Assembly (NCBI GenBank): GCA_945859605.1
Contig: OX243815.1
Location: forward strand, 39,853,959 to 39,917,958
DNA from: Lumbricus rubellus
Lineage: Eukaryota > Annelida > Clitellata > Crassiclitellata > Lumbricidae
Direction of reading: 5' to 3'
DNA: 64,000 nt
Of this stretch, positions 8,001-54,300 are shown one piece after another. The position numbers and the translations under genes are program-made. Under the pieces are notes generated by a model that saw only the letters and a program-made list of their open reading frames with translations, ran no database searches and had not been told where the DNA came from. Position 1 is the stretch's first letter, and each line of letters starts with the position of its first letter.

Positions 8001-11000
8001 GTTTATAAGCAACAAATTATCACTTAATGTAAAAAAATCCAACTGTATCATTTTTCGCTCCACAGGAAAATCCATCCCCAACAATGATAGTCAAATAACT
8101 CTAAATAATATTACTATTCCTCAAGTATCCTCAACAAAATTTTTAGGTGTCTACATCGATCAACACTTGAAATGGAAAACTCACATTTTTGAAATTAGTA
8201 ATAAAATCAAAAAGAATCTTGGCATTATAAAAAGAGTATCTTACCTTCTCCCCCCTCATATTCTACGGGATCTCTATTATACCCTCATATATCCATATCT
8301 GACGTACTGCAACATGATCTGGACTTCGACATATGACTCCAATCTTAAAGGTATAAAGATCCTTCAAAAAAAGACCATACGAGTTATAACTAAATCTCCC
8401 CCCAATTCACACACGAGTCCACTATTCTTTGAACATAAACTCCTAGACATTAATCAAATCAAATTCCTACAAACTTGCATCTTCATGTATAAATACATCA
8501 ATAACCTCCTCCCATCATCATTCTCATCCTATTTTGACCCAGTGCCACATCTTATTTTCACTAGAAGTAACAATGACTTCAGGCCTGTGTTTGCAAGAAC
8601 TAATGTCCGTAAGTTTTCGCTTAGGGTTCAGGGCCCCGCTAACTGGAACAGTCTTCCCAAAGAAATCCGTACGGTTACATCCGTTAGCCACTTTAAAACC
8701 CTTGCACGTGCACACACACTAATATATATTACTTAAGCTCAGCTTTGTGTTTGTTGTTAGTTAAGTTTTAGTTAAGAATATAATCTGCATCCTTACGTAA
8801 TGTCTACTACATATATCTTATATAGACATAACAACGTCTATTTCCCTTACTTAATCTCTCCCACCATCCTGTCCTACCTCTTCCTGGTATATAGGCCCCT
8901 ACTAAGCGGGACTTGTCCCTTCTGGTGTGCCTATTGCTCCCTAATCTGTATTCTAATCTCTTTTCCGAATGTGCTAGTACTTTAATTATAATAATAATTA
9001 TTGTCTTATAATATTTTCTGTAAAAAATAATTACGTTTTTGTGGGATCAATAAAACAATTTGAATTTGAATTTGAGAACATACTATTTTTCCATCAAAAA
9101 AATCTGTTGACCTTTTTTAGTCATCTGATCAAAAAGTCAGAGAACATACTATTTTTCCATCAAAAAAATCTGACGACCTTTTTTAGTCATCTGTTCTAAA
9201 AGTCAGAGAACATACTATTTTTCCATCAGAAAAAATCTGACGACCTTTTTTAGTCATCTGATCTAAAAGTCAGAGAACATACCATTTTTCCATCAGAAAA
9301 AATCTGACGACCTTTTTTTGTTCAAACCGAATGGTGGTGGGCAACTGGGCACGATGCATGGGCATTTCTAAATGGAGGGGGTCATGGCCGGATTTCCCCC
9401 ACTCTTTGGATCCGCCTCTGGTCCGTCCATGGATAAGATTAAATACAACTGACTTACTCCGGTCTGAATTCCGTCGACAGCCTTTTTCTTTTCTTCGCTC
9501 ACTCCGTATCTTTCGATCGCTTCTGTCAGTCCATCTCTAAAGCCATCCTCCACCTGCAAAAAAATCATTATTATTATAATTATGCATTGCAAGTGTGGAA
9601 AATGTATCATGGGCAGAACAGGCTTCAGCATTATAGGGTCAGGTCACTGAGGTCAGGCGAAAATAGGTCAGGCTGAGCAAGGAAAGTCACGTAAGACTAG
9701 GTAAGAAAAGATCAGGCCTGGCAAAAGGGGAGGGTCAGGTGTTGTCAGCTCAGGTAAGCAGAGCTAAAGGTGAGGTAATGAAAGGTTAGGTCATGCAGGC
9801 AAGCAGGAGCAGTAGGCCTAGCTATTGTTCCAAAAATTTATTATTATTATAATTACTATAATTAATTGTTATTATTACTTATTATTATTATTAATATTAC
9901 TACTATTACTATTTTTTGACCCGATGTATACATGATCCCTCAGGGACTTCGATGCTGATGATGATCATGATGATAATGACAAGAAGAATAGGGTCAAGAG
10001 TGATGCTATTATGACTGTTAACTGTCTAAGACGAGGCCGTAGGTGCTACCTTAGGCTGTGTATAGGTACCTTGAATGGGAGCTATATATTATTTTGATTG
10101 ACTGATTGATATAATTAATTTATACGCCTCTACGTCGTCCTTATAATCAGCTGTTAACCGACTCTACTTAGTCTAGACGACGCGGCGACCATGTTCCTAA
10201 TTTCTACCTAATTCCATATTCCATATTCCTAATTTCTACCTACTTCCATATTCCTAATTTCTACCTAATTCCGTATTCCATATTCCTAATTTCTACCTAC
10301 TTCCATATTCCATATTCCTAATTTCTACCTACTTCCATATTCCTAATTTCTACCTAATTCCGTATTCCATATTCCTAATTTCTACCTAATTCCATATTCC
10401 ACATTTCTAATTTCTACCTAATTCCATATTCCACAGTCCTAATATCTACCTAATTCCATAATCCTAATTTCCTACCTTCTGACGAAAGATGAAGATGGAG
10501 GCAGCCGTCGCCAGTTCAACAACGAAAATGACGATCAGAAACACGGAAAACTAAAACGAAGAAACAACTTCTCTGGCTAATAACCGTTAATTGCTGCAAA
10601 ACACTAACACTTGTCACAGGGGCGGATACAGAAATTTTCGAAGGGGGCGTAGCAAAATTTTCGAAGATCTTAGCCAGAAAAATATCATTTGCTCAAAATG
10701 TCTGGGAAATATAGGCTACCAGTTTCCTATCCATATAACTGATGGCCTTTTATTATTCATCTGGTCTTCCGACTTCGTAATCTCTTGGAATATACAAATA
10801 TAGGCTACTAAGCTTATACTATAACCTCTAATGTTCTCTCTTATACCTTATCCCGCAGCACTGATTTTAAAGCTTGTTGAAAAATCCTTTGACCTCTTAC
10901 CATGTAGAGTAGAGGGCTATGTCCTTTGACCTCTTACCATGTAGAGCAGAGGGCTATGTCCTTTGACGTCTTACCATGTAGAGCAGAGGGCTACGTCCTT

Positions 11001-14000
11001 TGACCTCTTACCATGTAGAGCAGAGGGCTTTGTCCTTTGACATCTTACCATGTAGAGCAGAGAGCTATGTCCTTTGACCTCTTACCATGTAGAGCAGAGG
11101 GCTATGTCCTTTGACATCTTACCATGTAGAGCAGAGGGCTATGTCCTTTGACCTCTTACCATGTAGAGGAGAGGGCTATGTCCTTTGACCTCTTACCATG
11201 TAGAGGAGAGGGCTATGTCCTTTGACATCTTACCATGTAGAGCAGAGGACTATGTCCTTTGACGTCTTACCATGTAGAGGAGAGGGCTATGTCCTTTGAC
11301 GTCTTACCATGTAGAGGAGAGGGCTATGTCCTTTGACGTCTTACCATGTAGAGGAGAGGGCTATGTCCTTTGACGTCTTACCATGTAGAGGAGAGGGCTA
11401 TGTCCTTTGACGTCTTACCATGTAGAGGAGAGGGCTATGTCCTTTGACGTCTTACCATGTAGAGGAGAGGGCTATGTCCTTTGACATCTTACCATGTAGA
11501 GCAGAGGGCTATGTCCTTTGACATCTTACCATGTAGAGCAGAGGGCTATGTCCTTTGACATCTTACCATGTAGAGCAGAGGGCTATGGCCTTTGACATCT
11601 TACCATGTAGAGCAGAGGGCTATGTCCTTTGACCGTGCACAGACATCCGAATGATCCGATGACGACTATGGCTGCTCCTACGCCGATGAGGACATAAGGA
11701 GCTGCGTCGTAGTAGACAGTCGTCAGCTCCATGTACATGAACAGCTCGAACTTCATCCATATTCCCAGGCCAAGGATCGCCACTCCGGACACCTACACAG
11801 CACACACACAATTACATGTATGTAGCCTATACTAATTTTTTATTATATTTGATGATGATGGTTCCCTGCCCGAAAGCAGGTTCGTTGGCTTTTACGCCTC
11901 TGGGGATGAGATGAGTGAGGTGGTTTCCCGTTGTCTTCCCCACAGACAATGATGGGTAAGCAACTTGCCAAAGGTCGTTCCGCAGCAGCTTGCGCCACCG
12001 CGTCCCATGCGTGCTAGCCCGAGATATCTAAATCTCTGAATGTCAACTCCCAGCTCGGGGCTTGAACCGCAGTCCGTTGTGACCAACAGACGTATGCCGC
12101 TCTCGCTTACCGGTGTAGCTAGCTAGGCCAGTTGTTATATTTAGTGACCGCTTTATTCAATGCGATTAAGTGAAACATACATGTACATGTAGGCTGTATA
12201 CCTGGGTCCTGGCTGGGATTGTTGCCAGTCAGTAGTCTGTTTTAATTTCTTGCCAATTCGGAACAAAGCATTTTTACACAAATACACTGCGACATCAGAA
12301 ATTGTTGAACAATGATAACTATAACTAAAACTGAAACTTTTAACATAATATTTTAAAGTTAGACGTTTCAGTTTACGTTGACTATAACTAGAACCAAAAC
12401 TCAGGAGATAACGATAACAATTATAACTAAAACTCTTGATTTAGAAATACAAAATAACTGTAACAATAACTATAATGAAAACATAAAGCTTCAATTCTGC
12501 ACCTGCTCTTGGATATTAATCACGCTTCGCATATAGGCTCTATATATTATACACGTATAAAGCATTTGCATTGCATGTAGGACTGCTTATTACTACAGAG
12601 AGTTTGTACTAAAGAGACCGAGCATTGTGGTTGAAGCCAGAGAGCGCATATTATTTGCATAGAGTGTATTATAATTCCCATTGGCCTATCTATATTATTC
12701 CCTCCCTTCCTCCCTCTTCCTTCCGTCCTCCTCTAATTCCCGCTTCATCGTTTATTCTTCATTAGACTTTATGTAGCTGCAGTCGATAGCAGACCGTCAG
12801 GCTCTCGCCGAGGTCCGCGCTTCGTCGTTTCCATAGTAACAGCGTCCAATCGATAAACGTGTCAGATAATGATGCTACGCAGGCCACGCAACCTCGTCCC
12901 AGTGACCAGACTGCTTGTTACGAGGATCACCAGAACAAGTACAAGCACAAACGGACATCATGGACAATAATGACATAACCGTTAGCCAACAAGATAAAAC
13001 AAAATAATAATAATAATTACACGAACGCATACGCTTAGGCATAGGTTCTCCAGCAGAGGTACTGAAACAGGGCAAGCCATCAGGGCAAATGCCCTGGTGG
13101 AAAAGCCTGTGCCATGGTCGCTGCCCTGTCACAATGGTGACAGAATTTCTGCCCTGCAGCTAATTTATTTGGGGCGTAAATCGCCCACTGCCAGTGGCGG
13201 ATTTAGGTTTTATTGCATGGGGGGTCGAGGAAAATTTCAAGAGGGCGCCTGTACTTACATAGTTAAAAACAGTGAACAAATTATAGAGGCCTAACTCATC
13301 CGATTTAGCCGACTTAGTACATAAAACAAAATGAAGAATCTAAAACAGAAACTTTTTCATTTGTGAGCTTGACTAGGCCTACTTACTTGAGTTACATAAA
13401 TTTATGCTTAGGCCTTATAAATAAAAAAAATTATTAATGTTTTTTTAAGTAATAAGCACGGGCCGGGCCCGAGGGGGCGCCATTTTCACCCCACAGGGGC
13501 ACGGGAGGGCGACCAGACCCCCCGGGCCTGGACTAAATCCGCCACTGCCCACTGGTTATTTGTATGATTGCCGCGATGGTTATAAACACTTGCGCCATCT
13601 CGCGACTATGTTGGATATTATACAATGAACACACAAAATAATATGCTAAACACACGCATGTTTAGTCATGCATATTTAATCTATATAAATAAAAAATAAT
13701 GAAACTTTCCAATAGTTCGTAATATTTTTTCGCCGAAAGTTGCGCACCGATTGTTTTGAAAATTTACCAAAACCTTCCATTCCAATAGGACCGTGTCTTA
13801 AGATTTTTCCCGACAAAAACGCAATCTTTTCCACAAAAAGTGAACTTTGCAATCCGTTCGACCGCCATTTGCAAATTCAACAAAACCGCAGGGTTGCCAG
13901 ATTTCAGAAACGCGTGTGTCCCGAAACACAGTGACCAGACGAAACATGAATGAGGTCGCGTGCTGTGACGTCATAAGCGAGTCGCATAATTTCCGTTCAT

Positions 14001-17000
14001 TCAAAAACGAAAGCGGCCTTTCACCATTCTTGGGCTCTATCCGCTGTCAGGAAGGGACGGTGTGAGGAAGGAAAGGAGCGGAGGGAGCGGGACGAAGAGG
14101 GAGGGGAAGGGGAGGGTCTTTTCTGCCACAGCAACGCGTGGCCGGGTACAGCTAGTTTTATAATAAACATTAAAAATATACATGTATACAAATGCAGTAT
14201 GGAATGCATACCACATATGCATTCATACATACATACATACATACATGCATACATACATACATACATACATACATACATACATACATACATACATACATAC
14301 ATACATACATACATACATACATACATACATACATACATACATACATACATACACAAAGGTACATACATACATACATACATACATACATACATACATACAT
14401 ACATACATACATACATACATACATACATACATACATACATACATACATACATACATACATACATACATACATACATACATACACACACGTACATACATAC
14501 ATACATACATACATACATACATACATACATACATACATACATACATACATACATACATACATACATACATACATACATACATACATACATACATACATAC
14601 ATACATACATACATACATACATACATACATACATACATACATACATACATACATACATACATACATACATACATACATACATACATGCATACATACATGC
14701 ATACATTCATTCAGCTGTCTAGCTGCAGTTAACTTGATGACCTCATACCGCCTTCGGTTGAATTCTGATAAAACCCGATTTATTTGTGGTCGGATAGAAT
14801 CTATATATTTTGATTTATCTTTGTGCCCTTCGCCGTTTTCTCTGATAACACATTCTCATGGGCGCCTGCAGTTATTTTCGCAGGAGGGACAAAACATATT
14901 AACGATCTTGGTGAAATTTTTAAGAAGAGCTGGATGATGCAAAGCCAGAAATTAACAACGTAGGCTAGATATTTTTCACAGAGGCTTAATTCCGAATGTA
15001 AATTTATCAGTTTCACTTTTGTAGGCTACATGCCTATCACAACCATAATTTTGGCAATTGCTGTAATGCAAAATAAGAAAAGCATTCAAACGCAGTAGTT
15101 AAAAATATGATCTGACTCTGGGACCTAGTTCATAATCGTCAACCATGGGTGGAGTTGGGTTTCCGGGGGGGGGGGTTTGGGGGGAGCTAAAAAATTGGGC
15201 TATAGTTGGAGCGGAGAGTCTAAAAAAAATTTTCCTCGGCCCCAAAAAGTTGATGACCTTTTTTAGACATCGGGTCAAAATCTCATAAAAACCGTACTAT
15301 TTTCTAGGACAAAAAGTTGATGACCTTTTTTAGTCATTCGATTTGAAGTTTCGTTCGTGAAAAAGGCCATTTCCCCGAATATATTCTCGAGTCTGGGTCT
15401 TCTTGGGGGTGAGGGGGGGATGGCACTGGTGGGCCAAGGGCTGACCCCTGGAAAAGATTTTCATGGTAAAAAAACTGAGTCTGGGCCTTCTTCTAGCCCC
15501 TGATAAACTCCGCCCATGTCGTCAACGTAAAATCTAAATTTGTAATTGTAATTGTAATCGAACATTTATAATATAGCCCCACTTCAAGAGAACTCTTCAG
15601 AAGCGCTCCCGACCTGACACCAAACCATAATCAAAGAGAATGGTTTTCAAACGCTTGCGCAAAAGGGGCAAAGAGAGACAAAGAAGTTCATTACGGAGAC
15701 TAATAGGTAACTTATTCCAGAAAGACGGACCCACCATAGCAAAACTTCTATGCAGCAATGTGGAAGATCGAGCCATAGGAACAACCAGGTAATTGGCAGA
15801 GCGTTGGAATCTACGGCCTGGAATGGATAGTACAGGCACACAAAGCTCCATGAGATAGATCGGCAATTACGCATGAGCATTATACACCGTGACTCAAAAA
15901 AAGTAAGCCAAATTGTTTTGCATATATCTCTAATACCTGATGACATATGAAGCTACAATTTTCCAAATATTTAGAGAAGTGGACCAAGAATATAATTCCA
16001 AAATTTCATGAAATAAAGTTGAACGGATAAAAAGATATGAATATTTAAACTTCATATACCGAAATTGCAGTTTACAAGCAATTTTCTGTCAGATTCAATA
16101 AAAAGTAAGCCAAACAATTTTTTTTACATCTCTGATGTCTGATGAGTAATCATAAAAACTTTTTCCAGATATTTAAGGAATTGAACCAAGAATAGGATTC
16201 CAAAATTTCATGTCATAAATGTGAAGGGCTAGAAGGATATGGATATTTCAACTTCATCACCCGAAATTTCAGCTTTCAGCAAGTCTGTTATTGTGTAGAC
16301 TTCATTTCTCCCACATTATGGCCTCCGAACAGTCCAGATTTGAATCCTGTCGACTATAAAATGTGGAGCGTGATGCAAGATCGAGCCTACCAGACAACAA
16401 TCCATGATATAAACGATCTGAAGCAACGCTTGTTGGAAGTGCGGGATGGCCTGAACCAAAAGATATTCGACGTTGCTGTTGCCATTGCAATGGCGCCAGC
16501 GCCCTCAGGCTTGCGTGCAAGCAGGAGGGGGACATTTTGAGCATCTTATTTAATTAAATTATCAAACCATACTGTTGGGGTCATATTGGTAGTTCAATTC
16601 TCTACATATCTGGAAAATTTTTGAATGATTAATCATCAGGCATTGGAGATAATAGGGAAACAGTTTATCGAATCTGACAGAAAATTGCTTGTAAACTGCA
16701 ATTTCGGTATATGAAGTTTAAATATTCATATCTTTTTATCCGTTCAACTTTATTTCATGAAATTTTGGAATCATATTCTTGGTCCACTTCTATAAATATT
16801 TGGAAAATTTTAGCTTGATATGTCATCAGGTGTTAGAGATATATGCAAAACAATTTGGCTTACTTTTTTGAGTCACGGTGTATGTCTAAAGAGCACCAAT
16901 TGAAAGCAAAACACAGCTGGGGCACAATAAAATTAATAGCCTAATTACTCACTATACATGTGGCTTAATTGTTCACGATCGATCCTCGTCTGCTTGAATT

Positions 17001-19503: not shown

Positions 19504-22500
19504 TCAACTAGTGGATCTACCATGATCACAAGCGGTAAAGTCAATGTCAGTCTTCAGTGAATCATGCAACTCTTGTGTGAGAAGCGCATGAAGAGATCTG
19601 TCCTCATATTTGTAAATCCATGTTCCGTTCACGAAATCATATCGCTTAGGACCGCTAAAACAGAAATCACCATGTAAACATTAATCTCATTATGAAATCA
19701 AGTTTTCAACAGCATTTTATACATAACATCATATAAAGCAATGATTTTTATGTAAAAACTCTATTTCAGTGACAATTTCAAATATAAAGAAATAATTTCA
19801 AACACTAATTACTAAATGGGGTGCGGTGGTGTACTGGTGGGTTCGGGGCCTTGGAGCCGAAAGGTTCAGGTTCGAATTCATCTCAAGTCGCCACATAGGG
19901 ACCTTGAGAAAGTCTTTCACTCGCGATTGCTCGTGCGCTTCGTCCCTCGATAGAGAGCCTGAAGGGGCGCTATAGTAAATGCAAGAAACATAATAAAAAT
20001 AATAAAATGACAGACGTTACTACTGTGTTGTTGCTTGTACACGAAAATGTAGCTAGCAATTGATTTATTAAATGATATTCTTACTTACTCAACTAACCAA
20101 TCAATTTCATATTTAATGATGAATAATTTCATATGTAATGATTTATAAGGCAAGTAACAGCACAGGCAGTTTGGCCAATTGGTTGAATGGAGAGTTAACC
20201 TGCGTGGAGAAGACAGCCAGAGTTGTTTATTCGGAGTCTGCTTGTTGATGACGTAAGTGCCAAGAGATGAACTCAGCTTCAGTGTAATGACACCATTCTG
20301 CAAAATCATCAACAACACCATTCTGTAAAATCATCAATAACACCATTCTGTAAAATAATCAATAACACCATTCTGTAAAATCATCAATAACACCATTCTG
20401 TAAAATCATCAATAACACCATTCTGTAAAATAATCAATAACACCATTCTGTAAAATCATCAATAACACCATTCTGTAAAATAATCAATAACACCATTCTG
20501 TAAAATCATCAATAACACCATTCTGCAAAATCATCAAAACAATAACATTCTGTAAAATCATCAATAATAACACCATTCTGCAAAATTATCAATAACACCA
20601 TTATGAAAAATCATCAATAACACCATTCTGTAAAATAATCAATAACACCATTCTGTAAAATCATCAATAACACCATTCTGTAAAATAATCAACAACACCA
20701 TTCTGTAAAATCATCAATAACACCATTCTGCAAAATCATCAAAACAACAACATTCTGTAAAATCATCAATAATAACACCATTCTGCAAAATCATCAATAT
20801 AACACCATTATGAAAAATCATCAACAACACCATTCTGTAAAACCATCAATAGCACCACTGTGTAAAATCATCAATAACGCCATTCTGTAAAATCATCAAT
20901 AACACCATTCTGTAAAAATCATCAATAACACCATTCTGTAAAATCATCAATAACACCATTCTGTAAAAATCATCAATAACACCATTCTGTAAAATCATTA
21001 ATAACACCATTCTGTAAAATCATCAATAACACCATTCTGTCAAATCATCAATAACACCATTCTGTAAAATCATCAATAACACCATTCTGTAAAAATCATC
21101 AATAACACCATTCTGTAAAATCATTAATAACACCATTCTGTAAAATCATCAATAACACTTGTCATTCTATAAAATCACTGAGGCTGAGTGATGTTTGAAT
21201 GTTAATACAAGGGCATGAAGTACAGGACACATAGTCAAAACCTGCTAGTCCCTTAAGGTTTACTCAGCCATAAGCAGCAGGAGAACAGATCATTGCCTAA
21301 AATTCACTCTCGTTTAATTTCTTTTCATGTTCACGCTATTTCATGTAAATCACACTGTGGTCTATCAGTTAGAGTTGAATAAACGAATATTATTATTATT
21401 ATAATCATCACATAATGACAATCAATATCATATATAATTAAACTTATTTGCGTCAAATAGAACTATGCAGTAATCAGAGAACATAAAATATGTTTAAAAT
21501 GCATTTAGTAAGTTCCCTTGACGGTAACAGCCCAGCCATTTAGATACCAGGTGACAAGGCAATTGACTAGCTGTGTGGCATGCTAGCTGATTGGAATCAC
21601 TTTAATGTGAATTTTATTCTGACATCCAACAGCTGGGAATTTTCTGTTATTTCATTTGACCAAAATTACCAAACTCACGGAAAACGAAACGTCAAATTCG
21701 CCGCCAGTTGCAGGAGAATCAGCCAACTCTTCTAACGTATCAGCTAACGATTCGAGTGTTTCATCCGCAATCCTGTTATATTCAACGTCCGAGAGTTGCC
21801 TGAAATGGATAAAGGCATTAATAAGAAAATCAATGATACACACACACAGATAGCCAAACTCACTTGTAAGTGAATATGTTTATATTTTAAATTACCAAAA
21901 TACATAATCGTAAAGTTACAATTAGCTAATGTGAATGTCGTAATATTTAACATATGTATATTCTGTTGAGACCCCTCCCCCACCATAAGCACTCGTATGC
22001 GTGGTGGACTGGTGGTGTAGTAGGGATGTTTGTTACCTTGCAGCCGGATGGTTGCAGGTTCGAATCCACCTCAAGACGCCGCATAGGGACCTTGAGCAAG
22101 TCCTCCACTCGCAAATACTCATTCGCTTCCATGTGAAACTCCGATTTAGTGTCTGTGCCGTAAACGGGAGCACTTCTGAGTAGTCTTCTTGAAGGGGCGC
22201 TATAACAAGTGCACATACATCTGGTGACCGCTCCTGCATATCTAATTATATGGACAGCTCGTAATGTTCATGGCTAATATACTCAACAGTGTTACTGTGA
22301 AAATCTGCAATATTATACCGATACTTAGTCAATTATTACATCACAATATTAATATTCTTTGCTTTAAATAATGTCACTTCAACCAATTCTCTCTTTACAT
22401 TGTTTTCTTCAAGCCTTGTTCGATCATGGTTCTATTGTATAAGATCAGGAGCACCTCTGATGAGCCTCTCTTAAGGTGGTGCTATATATGAATTTACAAT

Positions 22501-23631
22501 TACCATTAACAGTGTCAGCCAAAAAATCTAAAGCATGTCAGATTACATTAATCTTACTAATTTTTTAACTCTTGAGCATAGCATCGACCTCAGTTTTAAA
22601 AGCCAAAAACTACGTAAATAAATGGTCATTTATGAAGTTGCCAAGAGTTTTAAAAAATCTCAGCATAATGACCTGATCTGATCTCATTCTCGTGCGACGT
22701 TTACGTTGTATCTAATCGCCCCTCACTGCGTGCATGATTATATAGATCTAATCGCCCCTCACTGCGTAAAAGCCATACATGATTATATGGAAGAAGCAAC
22801 AACAGCCGGCAGGTGCATATACATATTATGCCATCAACAGCAATCCTGCTGTGAATGGTACATGTCCATTATCACCTTTCAAAATCATCAAGCCTTGTAC
22901 TTTTGTCTTTTGAACACCTAAATAATAAAGTTTCTTATCGCATTACATTGTTAAACATTGATTCACTTACGTCGTGATTTCATTTGCTGGTGGTGCTCCT
23001 CCATGAAGAAACCTAACTGCTCGTGCATAACTGGCTACAAGATTTTCATTTCTAGCAGATAAACGATGGTCAGACCGAACTGTGTACCCGAAGGATGCCT
23101 GGAAACAATAATTTTAAATTTCATTCATTCATTCATTCATTCTATGGACTAATTATACAGTGTCCCTTCACTCAGATAACATTTATTACTGAACAAGGGA
23201 ATAGTATGGTAAAAAAAAATTACACTACATTTTTTCAATCAGGTAACAAGAATTTTTCATCACAGCGAGAAACTAATTTCATGACATTGTCAGCAAGCTA
23301 ACTTCATCTATTGGATCAGTCATGTCATTTCCAAAACCGGTAACGGATATAATCCTCTGACAGATGCTACTGAATAACCACATGATACTAGCAAGTCGTA
23401 ACTTTAGAACTTATGACACTTTCACATCTAAAGTTCAGACCTACGTGAGCGATAATACAATAACCAATGATTATATAATTTTTCTATCTCTTTAAGCATA
23501 AACGCGTCAGTGCAAAAGCTTGACACTTTTACCTGTGTTACTAATCGTGTAAAATTTGAAAATCGACCATTTCGCCACGAAATTAATTGTTTATTTGACA
23601 AGTTAACACTTCGAAGTATTTTGGTCGCCAT
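19504..23631 (-). CDS. FXN: Frataxin, mitochondrial, complete five-exon gene
   Basis: Five exons on the minus strand join in frame: 23533-23631 (ATG), 22971-23098, 21679-21799, 20200-20297 and 19504-19654 (stop). The product is 198 residues. The first ~70 are basic, Ser/Asn-rich and nearly free of acid, a mitochondrial targeting sequence. Then come the acidic helix with [10 protein letters not shown], the strand [14 protein letters not shown], the family signature [19 protein letters not shown], and GPKRYDF with NGTWIY. Frataxin binds iron and activates the NFS1-ISCU complex in Fe-S cluster synthesis in the matrix. Exon 4 is 98 bp, as in vertebrate FXN. The start chosen is the first in-frame ATG; an out-of-frame ATG lies 8 bases upstream. 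Intron 3 carries a minisatellite made from the exon 4 acceptor. A Friedreich-type GAA expansion is not seen. Confidence 0.96.
19818..19990 (+). mobile_element. tRNA-derived SINE, copy 3
   Basis: Head GTGCGGTGGTGTACTGGTGG with B box GGTTCGAATTC and tail CTGAAGGGGCGCTATAG. It is shortened in the body relative to copies 1 and 2. It lies in the last frataxin intron. Confidence 0.8.
20285..21175. repeat. 25-bp minisatellite repeating the frataxin exon 4 splice acceptor (~35 copies)
   Basis: On the gene strand each unit is 13 intronic bases (GATGATTTTACAG) followed by 12 exonic bases (AATGGTGTTATT). The true junction reads GATGATTTTGCAG then AATGGTGTCATT, so the array duplicates the acceptor and the start of the exon. 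Most copies keep a usable pyrimidine-AG; a few have small indels or TATGAAAAATC variants that remove the AG. Confidence 0.96.
21998..22221 (+). mobile_element. tRNA-derived SINE, copy 4
   Basis: Head GTGGTGTAGTAGGGATG, B box GGTTCGAATCC, full body and tail CTTGAAGGGGCGCTATAAC. It is inserted in frataxin intron 2. Confidence 0.85.
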
Positions 23632-23667: not shown

Positions 23668-26028
23668 CAGTGATACCGCTCCAAAATTTAAGAAAAGCCA
23701 AGATGGGGTCTTAAAAAAGCCAAGAAAAGCCAAGTTAATAATTATTGACTATTTTTGAGTGCTTTTTGGGGATCTTGTGAGCCATTAAAGCTGACTTGTT
23801 TGCATTTCTAAGATTAATGCCTATTGTTATTAATATACGTATCGGTGATCAACTTATCATTATTTTATCTTTATCCATTTATTTGCGATTTTGCGAGGAA
23901 TCTCGCGAAATTGCACGTGACGTCATCATCATCATCATAAACCGTGGGCTCATCGCCCGAAGGTGTCCGACGCCCTTTTCGCCATATTCCTCCACAGATC
24001 TCTTTCCGTGACGTCACAAATAACTAATATGCAGAGAGCAAACAGTTCATGTCATGTCATGTCAATCACCGACGTCGCTGCGCGACGGTTGGTCGCATGC
24101 ATGGACTACGTACAGCTCTCCACTGCCTCCTATCGCGTGCAGCGGCGAGAAGATTGGATCCGGAAAGACGGGACCAAGCAAGAATGTTGTCAATCCAGCT
24201 AATACGCGGTCTACCCTTGCGTCGACAACCTTCCACGTGACCCAGCATAATGGCTTTTTCCACGCAATCCTGGGGAATCCTGATGGTATGACCGAAATAG
24301 GAGAGTTTGCGAGCCTTAATGGAATCCAAGAGCTCTGGTGAAGTTCCGGCAAGCCAATAAACCTGCTCTGTGGTAAGTTTGAGCGTCCAAGAAATGCGCA
24401 AAAGCTTACGGGTACATTTGTTCTCGAAACTCTGTATCTGCTTTTCCTCCGCCTTTTTAAGCACCCATGATTCGCAACCATAGGTTGCAACTGACCAGAC
24501 CAAGGATTTCATCAAACGAAGCTTGGTTTGAGTACTATTAATGGACTTGTTTTTCCAGACCTTCGTACGTAAGCTTCACCATGACCGCCATACCCATGGC
24601 CAGCCTGGACTTAATATCGACTGAGCACTTTGCATCGCTTGAGATTTTGCTGCCTAGATATATAAAGTTATCCACTTGTTTGAGTTCACTGTCCGCGACA
24701 AAAATCCTGAGGATCCTATCGGTATTGGTCATAACCTTCGTCTTTGAAACATTTATCTTTAAACCGTACTCCTTGGCAGCAGATTCGACACGATTGACGA
24801 GCTCCTGGAGTTCCTCTGGTGATGTAGCGATCAAGAGTATGTCATCCGCGTATCTAAGATTACTGATGGTCCTACCTCCAATTCTGAAGCCCCCCCTGAA
24901 CCCGTCAAGCGCCTTGCGCATTAGCCTACCTGTTCCGCCAGGATGTTAAATAGGCAAGGCGAGATGTTACAACCTTGCCGAACGCCTTTCTTAACGCGGA
25001 ACCAGTTAGAGGTGATATTATCTGTCCTAACAGCTGCTCGCTGCTGTTTGTATAGGTTCATCAATAGTTGGACAAGTTGTGGGGGAAACCCCATGTCCAG
25101 CATGGACAACCACAGTTGACCGTGTTGCACTATGTCGAACGCTTTCGTAAAATCTATGAAGCAAAAGTAGAGATTCTGACTTCTCTCATTTGCCTTTTCT
25201 ATGATGATCCGGAGGTTCGTAATCTGATCGCGAGTGCCTCGATTGGGTCTGAAACCGGCCTGCTCAGGAGCCAGTTCATTGTCAAGTTTGGTTTGAATGC
25301 GCTCCAGGATGACCCTTAGGAGAATTTTGCTGGCGTGCGAAACTAGCGCTATGGTCCTGTAGTTCTCGCAACAGAGCGGATCCCCTTTTTTCGGTAAAGG
25401 GATAAAAACTGATTGCGTCCAATCGTCGGGCCAGACTCCAGATATCCATACATCAGTACAAATCTTATGTAGCATGGTAAGAGTCATATCACCACCAAAT
25501 CTGAGAAGCTCGGTGGCGACTCCGTCCGGTCCCGAGGCTTTATGCAAAGAGGCTTTAAGCAAAGCGCGTTTGATTTCTTCTCGCAGTGGAGGCGGTTCTC
25601 TTTCCGTAATTTCGAACGTTATCTCGTCTTCATTGCCTGTGTAAAGTCCTTCACAATATTCCTTCCAACGTTCATTAACCTTCACCGGATCAACTAACTT
25701 CTTTCCAGAGACGTCCTTGATAGCTATTTTACGCGCCTGAAACGGTCTAGTGAGATTTTTGACTGACTAAACAAACAGTTCAGAGAATAATAATAAGTCG
25801 GATAAATCCTAATCAGTAGATAGTTATATTACTGCTAAGATTATTGTTATTTAGTGGATTATTGCTTAAATTGTTGTTATTTAGTTGATTATTGCTAAGA
25901 TTATTGTTATTTAATGGGCAGAAAAAAGCCAAGTAAAAAAGCCAAGGTCCTTTGAAAAAAGCCAATATCCCAAGATACGATTGAAAAAGCCAAGATCTTG
26001 GGAAAAAAGCCAAGGAGCGGTATCACTG
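23668..26028. mobile_element. hAT-like element with perfect 8-bp duplication, split by an RTE-like LINE
   Basis: Ends CAGTGATACCGCTCC and its exact complement. GTTGATCA is duplicated at 23660-23667 and 26029-26036. Subterminal repeats of AAAAAGCCAAG are on both sides. It begins 36 bp upstream of the frataxin ATG, so it occupies the promoter-proximal side of that gene. Confidence 0.9.
23918..25765 (-). pseudogene. RTE-like LINE reverse transcriptase, 5'-truncated, two frameshifts
   Basis: Three overlapping minus-strand frames (25685-24921, 24921-24538, 24515-24066) together give the RT domain: HKASGPDGVATELLR, FIPLPKKGDP, EQAGFRPNRGTRDQI, FIDFTKAFDIV, VRQGCNISPCLFN, then YADDILLIA. The C-terminus GRPRISWIDNI is typical of RTE-type and related non-LTR elements. 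Frame breaks lie near 24921 and 24530. The 3' end is a TGATGATGATGA tail, also RTE-like, at about 23918. The apurinic endonuclease half is missing. It is inserted in the hAT-like element at 23668-26028 and cannot be active. Confidence 0.88.
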
Positions 26029-34695: not shown

Positions 34696-34730
<35 letters not shown>

Positions 34731-35225: not shown

Positions 35226-35377
35226 TACGGCGCTCCGTTCGGGCCATCGGATAAAAAAAATTAAAATCTCGTTATAACGAGATTAATCTCGTTATAACGA
35301 GATTAATCTCGTTATAACGAGATTAATCTCGTTATAACGACTTTTTCGTTCCTACGACTTTTTGTTGCTAAAAATAG
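35226..35377 (+). repeat. Left terminal inverted repeat of the 14.6-kb transposon
   Basis: The order is TACGGCGCTCCG, a short A-rich stretch, four palindromes centred on GTTATAAC, then ACTTTTTCGTTCCTACGACT. It is matched in inverted orientation at 49705-49857. Confidence 0.97.
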
Positions 35378-49704: not shown

Positions 49705-49857
49705 CTATTTTTAGCAACAAAAAGTCGTAGGAACGAAAAAGTCGTTATAACGAGATTAATCTCGTTATAACGAGATTAATCTCGTTATAACGAGATTAAT
49801 CTCGTTATAACGAGATTTTAATTTTTTTTTACCCGATGGCCCGAACGGAGCGCCGTA
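49705..49857 (-). repeat. Right terminal inverted repeat of the 14.6-kb transposon
   Basis: Inverted match to 35226-35377, with four GTTATAAC-centred palindromes, ending GGAGCGCCGTA. TTCAAC follows. Confidence 0.97.
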
Positions 49858-51380: not shown

Positions 51381-54300
51381 GTATGGGTACCGCTAGACAA
51401 TAGACAGCGGTGGGCGTGTTGTTGCCAGTCTGTGGCCGTTGCCGTTTAAGTTACAACAACTGCTCTCCTCCGGGAAGAAGAAGAGACTTGGCAGATCCAC
51501 CCTCAAAACAATAACTGAAAGCACGGTGATACGCAGAGGGACGTACGGACGGACAAGACAGACCGAACCAAGTGACGCGAGCCCTGGATTTATGCGCCAA
51601 ACGAAAACAATATACGCAGGCTGTGAAATAAAAACTCTGGGGCGACAAGCAGTCTGGTGGTTGAAATTAAACCAGAGCCAGCAATACCGCGGGGTCTTTC
51701 AAATTCATTGTCACGACCCACTCGTCAATGTCGTCGCTGTCATCATGATGATGATGAAACTAACGGATTAATCAACCGTACCATTACTAACCACCCTGAC
51801 ACCAATCAACAACCTTGTGCACCTTCACCAAGTCTCAGCTTCATACCCATCACCCTCATGCTGATAAACATTCTCTAATTTCTCTTCATCATAATCAACT
51901 CTCCACTATCATCATCATCATCATCAACCTCCTTGTCGTAATCAATTTTTCCTGCACCATAATCCACCTGAACCTAATCTTCTTCGCCATCATCACCATC
52001 ACCATTAACCTCATTTTAATCATTCTCTTCACCACTGTCACCGTGCTATTTTAGCCCTCAGTTTTCATTGCGTTAATATTTGATGAATGTAAAGTTAAGG
52101 TTGTTGAGTGCATGGCAATACATTTCCCCACACACCACTCCTCATCAGGGTTCTGTATAGTGGCAAAATTAGAGGTGAGTACACACTACAGTTGCCTAGG
52201 TATGTCTATTTCCTCTTATCCCCTATACACTAAACACAAATATTTGTGACTTCAGTACACTCTGTATACCACTGACTACAGCCCAGGGTCCCCATACAAC
52301 TTCTGTTGTAACTGTAAGCCCTTGGTGCACCAACAGAAGAAAAACATATTATCTTGAACAAACCTCACAACCACCCTCGGCCTCAACTTTACCAGAATTA
52401 TGCCTACATCGTTACAATGTCCACCTCTTTACCATAATCATGACCAACTCTTTACCATAATCATGACCAACTCTTTACCATAATCATCAAAACCTCTTTA
52501 CCATAATCATTGAAACCTCTTTGCCATAATCATCCGCCATCTCTTTACCATACTCATCGACCACCTATTTACAATAATCATCGACCACCTCTTTACCATA
52601 ATCATCAAAACCTCTTTACCATAATCATCGAAACCTATGCTGGCGATCGTCATGAAACTCATCTTCTTAATCATCATCTTGACAAGTTCAGTTAGTCCAT
52701 CACCATATGACAACAGTCATCATCCAGGATTCATCCTACAGCAATAATATTGGCTCTAACTGACCTAGTCTCTTGTCAGAAAGATGGGGCGAAGAAATGT
52801 CGCTGCACATTGACAAACACGTGATGACAAAATACATGTTAACATCCTCATTAACACACTGTAAGTCATTATCATCATTGTCATTTACAATGACCAGTAC
52901 AACTGCAAAGCATTTAAGACCCCTTCTCATAGTATACAGACAGATACAAACAATACAAAAAGCCTATGCATATTTAAGCACACTTAAAGGGCGAAAAACC
53001 TTAAAACTGAGAATGATGTTGTCGAGTGTCAGAAGAGGCAAGATTAACATTGGAACGACTATAATTATATATTTACAGATACACTCAACCAGACATGCAA
53101 AGTACAATGCATCATGCTGATGTTCAATACTGAAATGGTTGCCAGAGGAAGCAAATTTATATCCTACAAAGCTCTCAGAAAACACAATTATTCCATAATA
53201 ATGTTTGCCGCACTCATTTTTTTTGCGAGAGCCGGTTGCATGCAAAACACGCGTAAAGCACATGAAATAAAAAAAAGCTGCAAGCAATTCGTAAACTTTA
53301 ACATATATAATTATATTTACTTAATTATCACTGATTATCATAGACTTGTAATCGATACATAACACTCTATTTACAAACGTAAACATACATAGAAAGGTTT
53401 TTTATTGATTTATTTAATGTACAAATTTTCACCTGCCATTTCTTGATTTCAGTTCAAAACTGGACACTTCTCAACATTAAAAAATCTGCCTCTTAAAAAG
53501 GTGCAACACAAAGGGGTAAGGTACAACGTGAGGGTAAAGTAAGTCAACTGCAAAATATATGGAGCACATATTTATCAACACAGTCCACAACAACACTGAG
53601 GCAAAGCTTGGTATCTTACCTATAAACCTGTGGTACAATTGTAGTGCAAGAAAGCACAACTTTTGGGCTATGCATGCGACTTCAAATAAAAGACAATAGA
53701 CATCACTTGGTTGTAGGCCAAGATGGTTTTCAGCTACCATTTCTTTAAAATACAGCTGCAAGTACTTATGCATTTGCTTAGCCATCTTTAATCCATTAAG
53801 CCAAGGGCTGCAATATCATCACTTAGCTACAAGACATCAGTAATTATCAGATCCCACTTTCAGACAATGAATGCATATGCAATTACACATGCACAGCCAT
53901 GTTGAACCCATTAAACCAAGGGCCACAATACATAAATCTCTACAGTAGATTAATTATCATATCCCTTACAGTACGAACACATGCATACTTTGCATAGCCA
54001 TGTAAAACCAATTGATTATACAAAACAGGCTTCATGATCATTGTCAATAGTCTTTGAAACAGTTCAAACCATCATTATTAAACACAAGGCTTTCCTACAC
54101 AAAAGCTGTTTAATAAGCACTGGGCAAATTCACTGTTGCAGAAGCTGTGAGTGAGCACAGTACAATGAAGACTAGCCAAACTGATGAATGCTTTTCATGG
54201 TGCTTTAATCGCCTCTCAAGATTCTGACACCTCTTTGGAACCAGATAATGGAGTACACACTCCTTTCTAATATGTGCCCATTAAGATAGCAAGGTCCTTG

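Follow-up and report, generated by a model that had tools for sequence, protein, structure and literature searches.

How is one acceptor chosen where the splice junction that holds it has been repeated dozens of times within the preceding intron? This question is raised by a locus on chromosome 5 of the annelid Lumbricus rubellus, in a stretch of 64,000 nucleotides that was analysed as a whole (the window). Here, the boundary between intron 3 and exon 4 of a frataxin gene forms the last unit of a long minisatellite.

The frataxin gene and its acceptor array

The gene lies on the minus strand, where exons 2 to 5 were delineated. Exon 2 (22971..23098, 128 nt), with edges placed by eye, is followed by exon 3 (21679..21799, 121 nt), which ends in phase 0 at TCC|GTGAGT. 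Exon 4 (20200..20297, 98 nt) begins behind the acceptor ...GATGATTTTGCAG|AATGGTGTCATT, and the coding part of exon 5 runs to the stop codon (19504..19654), its end having been determined by hand. The 33 residues encoded by exon 4 resemble solved frataxins (best phmmer E 4.2e-12), and the joined exons 3–5 matched Pfam Frataxin_Cyay (PF01491) with 118.4 bits at a cut-off of 21.3, covering positions 1–106 of the 107 in the profile, in agreement with the identity that the first-pass annotation had given to exon 4. A relative of 190 amino acids (P0001, 72% identical) aligned colinearly with the window, strongly to exons 3–5 and weakly to exon 2 (E 0.055); its source is cDNA-like, since this protein sits on a contig of 904 bases. 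The exon phases fit together across exons 2–5, and judged from exon 2 onward the gene looks intact. We number the array-bearing intron (20298..21678, 1381 nt) as intron 3 because the lengths and phases of the exons of 121 and 98 nt agree with those of human FXN. Upstream of exons 2–5, a reverse transcriptase in two pieces (PF00078) is present on the minus strand at 24541-25766, probably a broken retrotransposon.

The acceptor-type array extends over 20286..21179 on the minus strand, within a few bases of the previously annotated 20285-21175, and was parsed into the real junction and 34 copies upstream of it, where about 35 copies had been counted before. It lies within intron 3 (21678-20298), as had been stated, with 879 nt of this intron counted within the array. 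The outer end at 21179 was set by the unit register; TRF delimited the array at 20286-21158 (period 25, 34.3 copies, 90% matches), with a score of 1387, higher than in any other of the 38 TRF rows from the window. In gene direction the unit reads GATGATTTTACAG|AATGGTGTTATT and combines 13 bases from the end of the intron with 12 from the start of the exon, exactly the composition given in the first-pass annotation. Units measure approximately 25 nt (23–29 nt), one stretch of 50 nt having been divided manually into units of 27 and 23 nt. The exonic part AATGGTGTTATT is one base apart from the real start of exon 4, AATGGTGTCATT, whose first 12 nt belong to the last array unit. Beyond base 12 the identity to the exon ends: four copies were compared with it, and each matches at 10 or 11 of the first 12 positions and at none of the following 13. 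The claim that most copies keep their AG also held, with an in-register AG in 31/34 upstream copies and one shifted by 2 nt in a further copy (ACACAG). The AG is lost in 2/34, which read CATA; these probably go back to a single event, as both lie in what looks like the same block present in duplicate.

Among the 34 units, 17 types can be told apart by point changes and small indels; their order is ABCDEDBCDCDFGHIJKDLDMNOJPDMDMDDMDQ. Type D accounts for 11 of the units, duplicated blocks are present, and the copy at either end of the array is of a unique type, yet 10 interior types are unique as well. Exact repeats run over 117 nt at a lag of 126, over 93 nt at lags of 50 and 75, and over 86 nt at a lag of 205. 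The order of types and these long exact runs demonstrate, at the level of sequence, growth in steps of one unit as well as of multi-unit blocks. The boundary of exon 4 would have spread backwards into intron 3 as tandem copies, with slippage or unequal exchange as the presumed process.

Since one assembly and one haplotype form the basis of these observations, an assembly artefact or a pseudogene copy has to be considered. The intact exons 2–5 with their joining phases argue against this, as do the 17 types with their point changes and small indels. An array of ~0.9 kb should, moreover, fit within HiFi reads. The assembly is reported as 30-fold HiFi with a QV of 52.2, and a second L. rubellus haplotype has been deposited besides it (PMC11015115); because of these reads and this second haplotype, we consider an artefactual origin of the array scarcely credible, as we do a pseudogene copy.

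A 75-nt array query against the 787-Mb genome, in which common words were skipped and the best candidates alone were scored, returned 15 matches, all within this array and none at a second place; they put the window at 39.85-39.92 Mb of contig 5. The COX1 gene on the mitochondrial contig of this genome shares 96% identity with that of Eisenia nordenskioldi and 94% with that of an Amynthas. The idea of a dispersed repeat was dropped on the result of the array query, and no Rfam or tRNA element was detected in the window at gathering thresholds.

Decoy acceptors and the choice of the last copy

All 34 upstream register starts lead to a premature stop, 33 of them within the array and one in exon 4, consistent with the earlier statement that use of an upstream copy brings a stop. 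Intron 3 contains 59 AG dinucleotides including the real one, which alone gives the full frame. Use of the array as coding sequence was rejected, as none of the 58 upstream AGs opens a frame through to exon 5. No insert was found at the exon 3–4 junction in 11 aligned relatives (535 were found and 120 listed), and P0001 at this junction likewise has no insert and reads as the joined worm sequence; these cDNA-like relatives, some of them from other taxa, may themselves lack an array.

Acceptor strength by itself fails to single out the last copy. Using a matrix that is approximate and was written from general knowledge, the real site scored 8.35, and 28/34 decoys scored equally or higher, so that the acceptor itself leaves the winning of the last copy unexplained. 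RNA structure hiding the decoys was rejected as well: the 300 nt from 20270 to 20569 gave a z of 0.72, with 151 of 200 shuffles folding at least as well.

The first-AG rule holds downstream of the branch point in use, and an AG within ~12 nt of a branch point is too close to it. Adenosines in a yTnAy context were found at positions -12, -29 and -37 of the real AG, the nearest upstream AG being 25 nt off, and the branch-like motifs TTGAT and TTTAC recur in the copies adjoining the real site. Located one or two copies ahead of the real acceptor, such motifs would place the branch point near it. If branching took place in the copy just before it, the AG of that copy would lie within ~12 nt, and the real AG could become the first usable one. 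A nearby branch point, together with the body of exon 4 and its donor, which the real acceptor alone adjoins, is the reason why we expect the exon-proximal acceptor to be chosen.

Our preferred reading, to which we assign a probability of about 0.75, is that the array is a largely passive splice-junction minisatellite, or "mirage", whose exon-proximal acceptor is used. We infer passivity and correct-copy choice from the sequence, in which passive and regulatory arrays look alike. Messenger RNA with an early stop would be destroyed. A decoy-spliced frataxin mRNA would, by its sequence, contain such a stop, and for this reason the array may lower output somewhat and would add no altered full-length protein.

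The term mirage is used for minisatellites of duplicated intron/exon boundaries in amphioxus (PMC3087553, PMC3902484). On the basis of Adh3 data and their own RT-PCR, the authors suggested no interference with regular splicing (PMC3087553). This bears on the final claim of the first-pass annotation, which had expected that the array should disturb splicing under first-AG scanning from an upstream branch point. Its observation and anatomy stand, but the disturbance is not supported, though not disproved, because scanning starts from the branch point used, possibly near the last AG with its branch-like motifs, and because amphioxus mirages are reported to splice regularly (PMC3087553, PMC3902484).

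If the decoys were regulated, some transcripts would take upstream acceptors and be degraded, and array length or trans factors would set the frataxin dose. The 31/34 in-register AGs, the 28/34 decoys that equal or exceed the real site in score and the stops behind all upstream copies would fit such a function. However, retention of the AG is expected for a young homogenised array, published mirages are reported without splicing disturbance (PMC3087553, PMC3902484), and random extensions often hit stops anyway, so that an all-stop outcome is no sign of design. On balance, regulation by decoys appears unlikely.

In human FXN, the GAA expansion of Friedreich ataxia is a tandem repeat in intron 1 that is not known to act through splice sites. 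It has in common with the L. rubellus array that both are intronic tandem repeats in frataxin, whereas intron, unit and mechanism differ, and the likeness is a coincidence of the gene only. The array might still be harmful, an expansion that hinders the inclusion of exon 4 and reduces frataxin, and would then parallel the human case at the level of splicing; the many near-identical competing acceptors scoring about as high as the real one could suggest this. We judge such harm highly improbable: in addition to the different location and action of the human repeat, exons 2–5 are intact, the animal came from a culture collection (PMC11015115) and normal splicing is reported for the amphioxus precedents (PMC3087553, PMC3902484).

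Donor-type arrays and junction repeats in other animals

A neighbouring tetraspanin gene on the minus strand contains two arrays of the donor type. Its exon ending in LLYM| (11604..11792, 189 nt) has the real donor after 11604, and the first array (10885..11633) comprises 20 donors CTACATG|GTAAGA exactly 37 nt apart (11604 ... 10901). The unit consists of 30 exonic nt plus GTAAGAN, and the GT is kept in 20/20 copies. Only the first donor leaves the frame open, and 19/19 later donors lead to a stop. The second array lies in the next intron (10189..10476; TRF rows end at 10464) and holds 10 copies of AG|GTAG that are 25–32 nt apart. Its first copy is the real donor of the TM3 exon FSVFLIVIFVVELATAASIFIFRQK (10476..10550, 75 nt), with ~2 exonic bases shared; again the first donor alone is open, and 9/9 later copies bring a stop. 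A further exon, VEDGFRDG...DGIQTG, follows at 9458..9553. The concatenated exons, including one wrong junction residue, matched PF00335 with 134.9 bits (cut-off 32.1) over positions 14–211 of 225 in the profile, and the first exon alone reached 30.9 bits, just below the cut-off. Going by these matches, the gene is real. No insert was found at either array junction in the four relatives aligned out of 66 found (93, 77, 68 and 53% identical). Both arrays would have been made by the same kind of process as the frataxin array, and junction minisatellites are perhaps common in this annelid.

Mirages have been described in cephalochordates and proposed as a route to new introns (PMC3087553, PMC3902484). 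Reported cases are Adh3 with units of 10–72 bp (PMC3087553, citing the Adh work), the globin gene BflGb6, in which units of 150–160 bp join the 3′ end of an intron to the 5′ part of exon 2 (two haplotypes have 6 and 3 of these units), and a donor-side mirage in the globin gene BflGb9 (PMC3087553); a mirage in TnC and, as a related case, imperfect repeats in PGBD5 were added to the amphioxus examples (PMC3902484). As far as these accounts describe them, they are like the L. rubellus arrays in spanning a boundary, in occurring as acceptor and donor types, in having many copies with AG or GT, and in their turnover. The frataxin array likewise spans the boundary of a real gene, and many but not all of its copies carry the splice dinucleotide. 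In layout it corresponds to BflGb6, from which it differs by more copies and a far shorter unit. Whereas length instability and regular splicing have been reported for amphioxus, the L. rubellus arrays are known as sequence from one haplotype, and the host belongs to a different phylum.

In human young paralogues within segmental duplications, minisatellites with units of ~30 bp at exon-intron boundaries are described that can create introns (PMC2812944). They are similar to the frataxin array in unit size and position, but in the published description have a mean of ~4 copies, reside in young paralogues and are connected with alternative splicing or intron gain (PMC2812944), in contrast to 35 copies in a conserved gene with no sign of a new intron. 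Intronic minisatellites are also reported from metallothionein genes of L. rubellus and Eisenia, with one clone showing fourth-exon duplications that are absent from the final transcript (PMC12783039). These share species and intronic location with the frataxin array; they are situated in intron 1, have monomers of ~180 bp on average and, in that account, are not presented as splice-site repeats (PMC12783039).

Our literature search, in which annelids, minisatellites and splice sites were queried jointly only narrowly, found no report of junction arrays in annelids. This kind of object is already known from the amphioxus accounts; new are the annelid host, the high copy number with a short unit, the two donor-type arrays in a neighbouring gene and the same frame outcome. 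Mirages are thereby extended from cephalochordates to an annelid.

With 35 acceptors in one gene and 20 + 10 donors in another, all in one window and with a clear frame readout, these arrays are a natural test of splice-site choice among many copies. Choice among identical competing splice sites is usually studied with few engineered copies. L. rubellus RNA has already been sequenced (run ERR9837136, PMC11015115; a long-read set, PMC12783039), and the question is therefore answerable from existing reads.

Frequency of minisatellites at splice junctions

We scanned the window together with a genome sample of 199,892 bases (263,892 bases in total) for arrays with a period of at least 10, at least 3 copies and a length of at least 60 bp, considering open frames that leave the array edge. 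The scan covered 33 arrays and gave 48 rows, 40 of which were read by eye. Besides the frataxin array, two scanned arrays hold the splice site of a recognisable exon, the tetraspanin array at 10885-11633 and one in sample locus L022; the second tetraspanin array (10189-10476) is outside the 33 and was met by following the gene.

The L022 array (positions 61-140; C4:30000000-30009999) is a triplicated acceptor immediately in front of a cyclophilin-like exon, with TATGTTGCCTTTGTGATTTCTTTTCAG as its 27-nt unit. Its acceptors at 84/111/138 are three copies of TTTCTTTTCAG|TA, of which the two upstream ones lead to a stop. The Pfam match of the exon, 21.7 bits, equals exactly its cut-off, and a motif scan detected no further cyclophilin exon in the 5 kb before it, which makes this case weaker than the arrays in the window. 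In the frataxin, tetraspanin and cyclophilin-like arrays, the exon-proximal site alone keeps the frame open. That such an all-stop outcome recurs in the other two is a further point against regulated decoys in frataxin.

Other arrays in the sample were not counted. At L028 3337-3891 (minus strand), 10.5 copies of a 53-nt unit contain AAG|GTAAAT; the array starts tens of nt downstream of the presumed donor, and with this strong donor-like consensus is possibly a further junction array. At L025 9354-9498 the array is situated upstream of a presumed acceptor, whereas L022 3377-3622 has the look of a coding repeat within an open frame.

These cases raise the possibility that minisatellites in L. 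rubellus are seeded preferentially at splice junctions, with hundreds to thousands of introns holding long arrays in which their own donor or acceptor is repeated as decoys and the spliceosome reliably choosing the exon-proximal copy. We placed four arrays at random in the window relative to 14 exon edges (the frataxin array, the two tetraspanin arrays and 52422-52636) and obtained p = 0.0012 for an edge inside at least three of them, and p = 0.010 for at least two of the other three holding an edge when the frataxin array was left out. These probabilities overstate the case against randomness, because the placement was post hoc, the edges came from the two array-bearing genes to the exclusion of all others in the window, our own cut-offs decided which arrays entered (microsatellites, short arrays and a 12-nt low-complexity array at 34696 did not), and the outer bound of the 10189-10476 array was set at the donor. 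There was no general excess of splice-like motifs in the units of 29 arrays, where 8/58 tests gave p < 0.1 against ~6 expected; the array at 10189, whose best-scoring TRF row has 2.7 copies, was not part of this test. Among the sample arrays with at least 5 copies, 0/13 were shown to hold a junction, the sole case from the sample having 3 copies. Minisatellites are plentiful, with 13 in the 200 kb of the sample, and some junction arrays are therefore expected without any preference. For these reasons we hold preferred seeding to be doubtful, as a tentative idea. If it were true, L. rubellus would offer a natural library in which splice-site choice could be measured across dozens of near-identical sites, and its genome would be a source of new introns.

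Two further kinds of repeats were noticed in the window. The separate segments 35265-35340 and 49742-49817 share a 20-nt unit, which in one register reads TCGTTATAACGAGATTAATC; each has 3.8 copies with 100% matches, and they are perhaps part of a mobile element. A CATA tetranucleotide repeat of ~490 bp occupies 14220-14710 and leaves several frames open on both strands.
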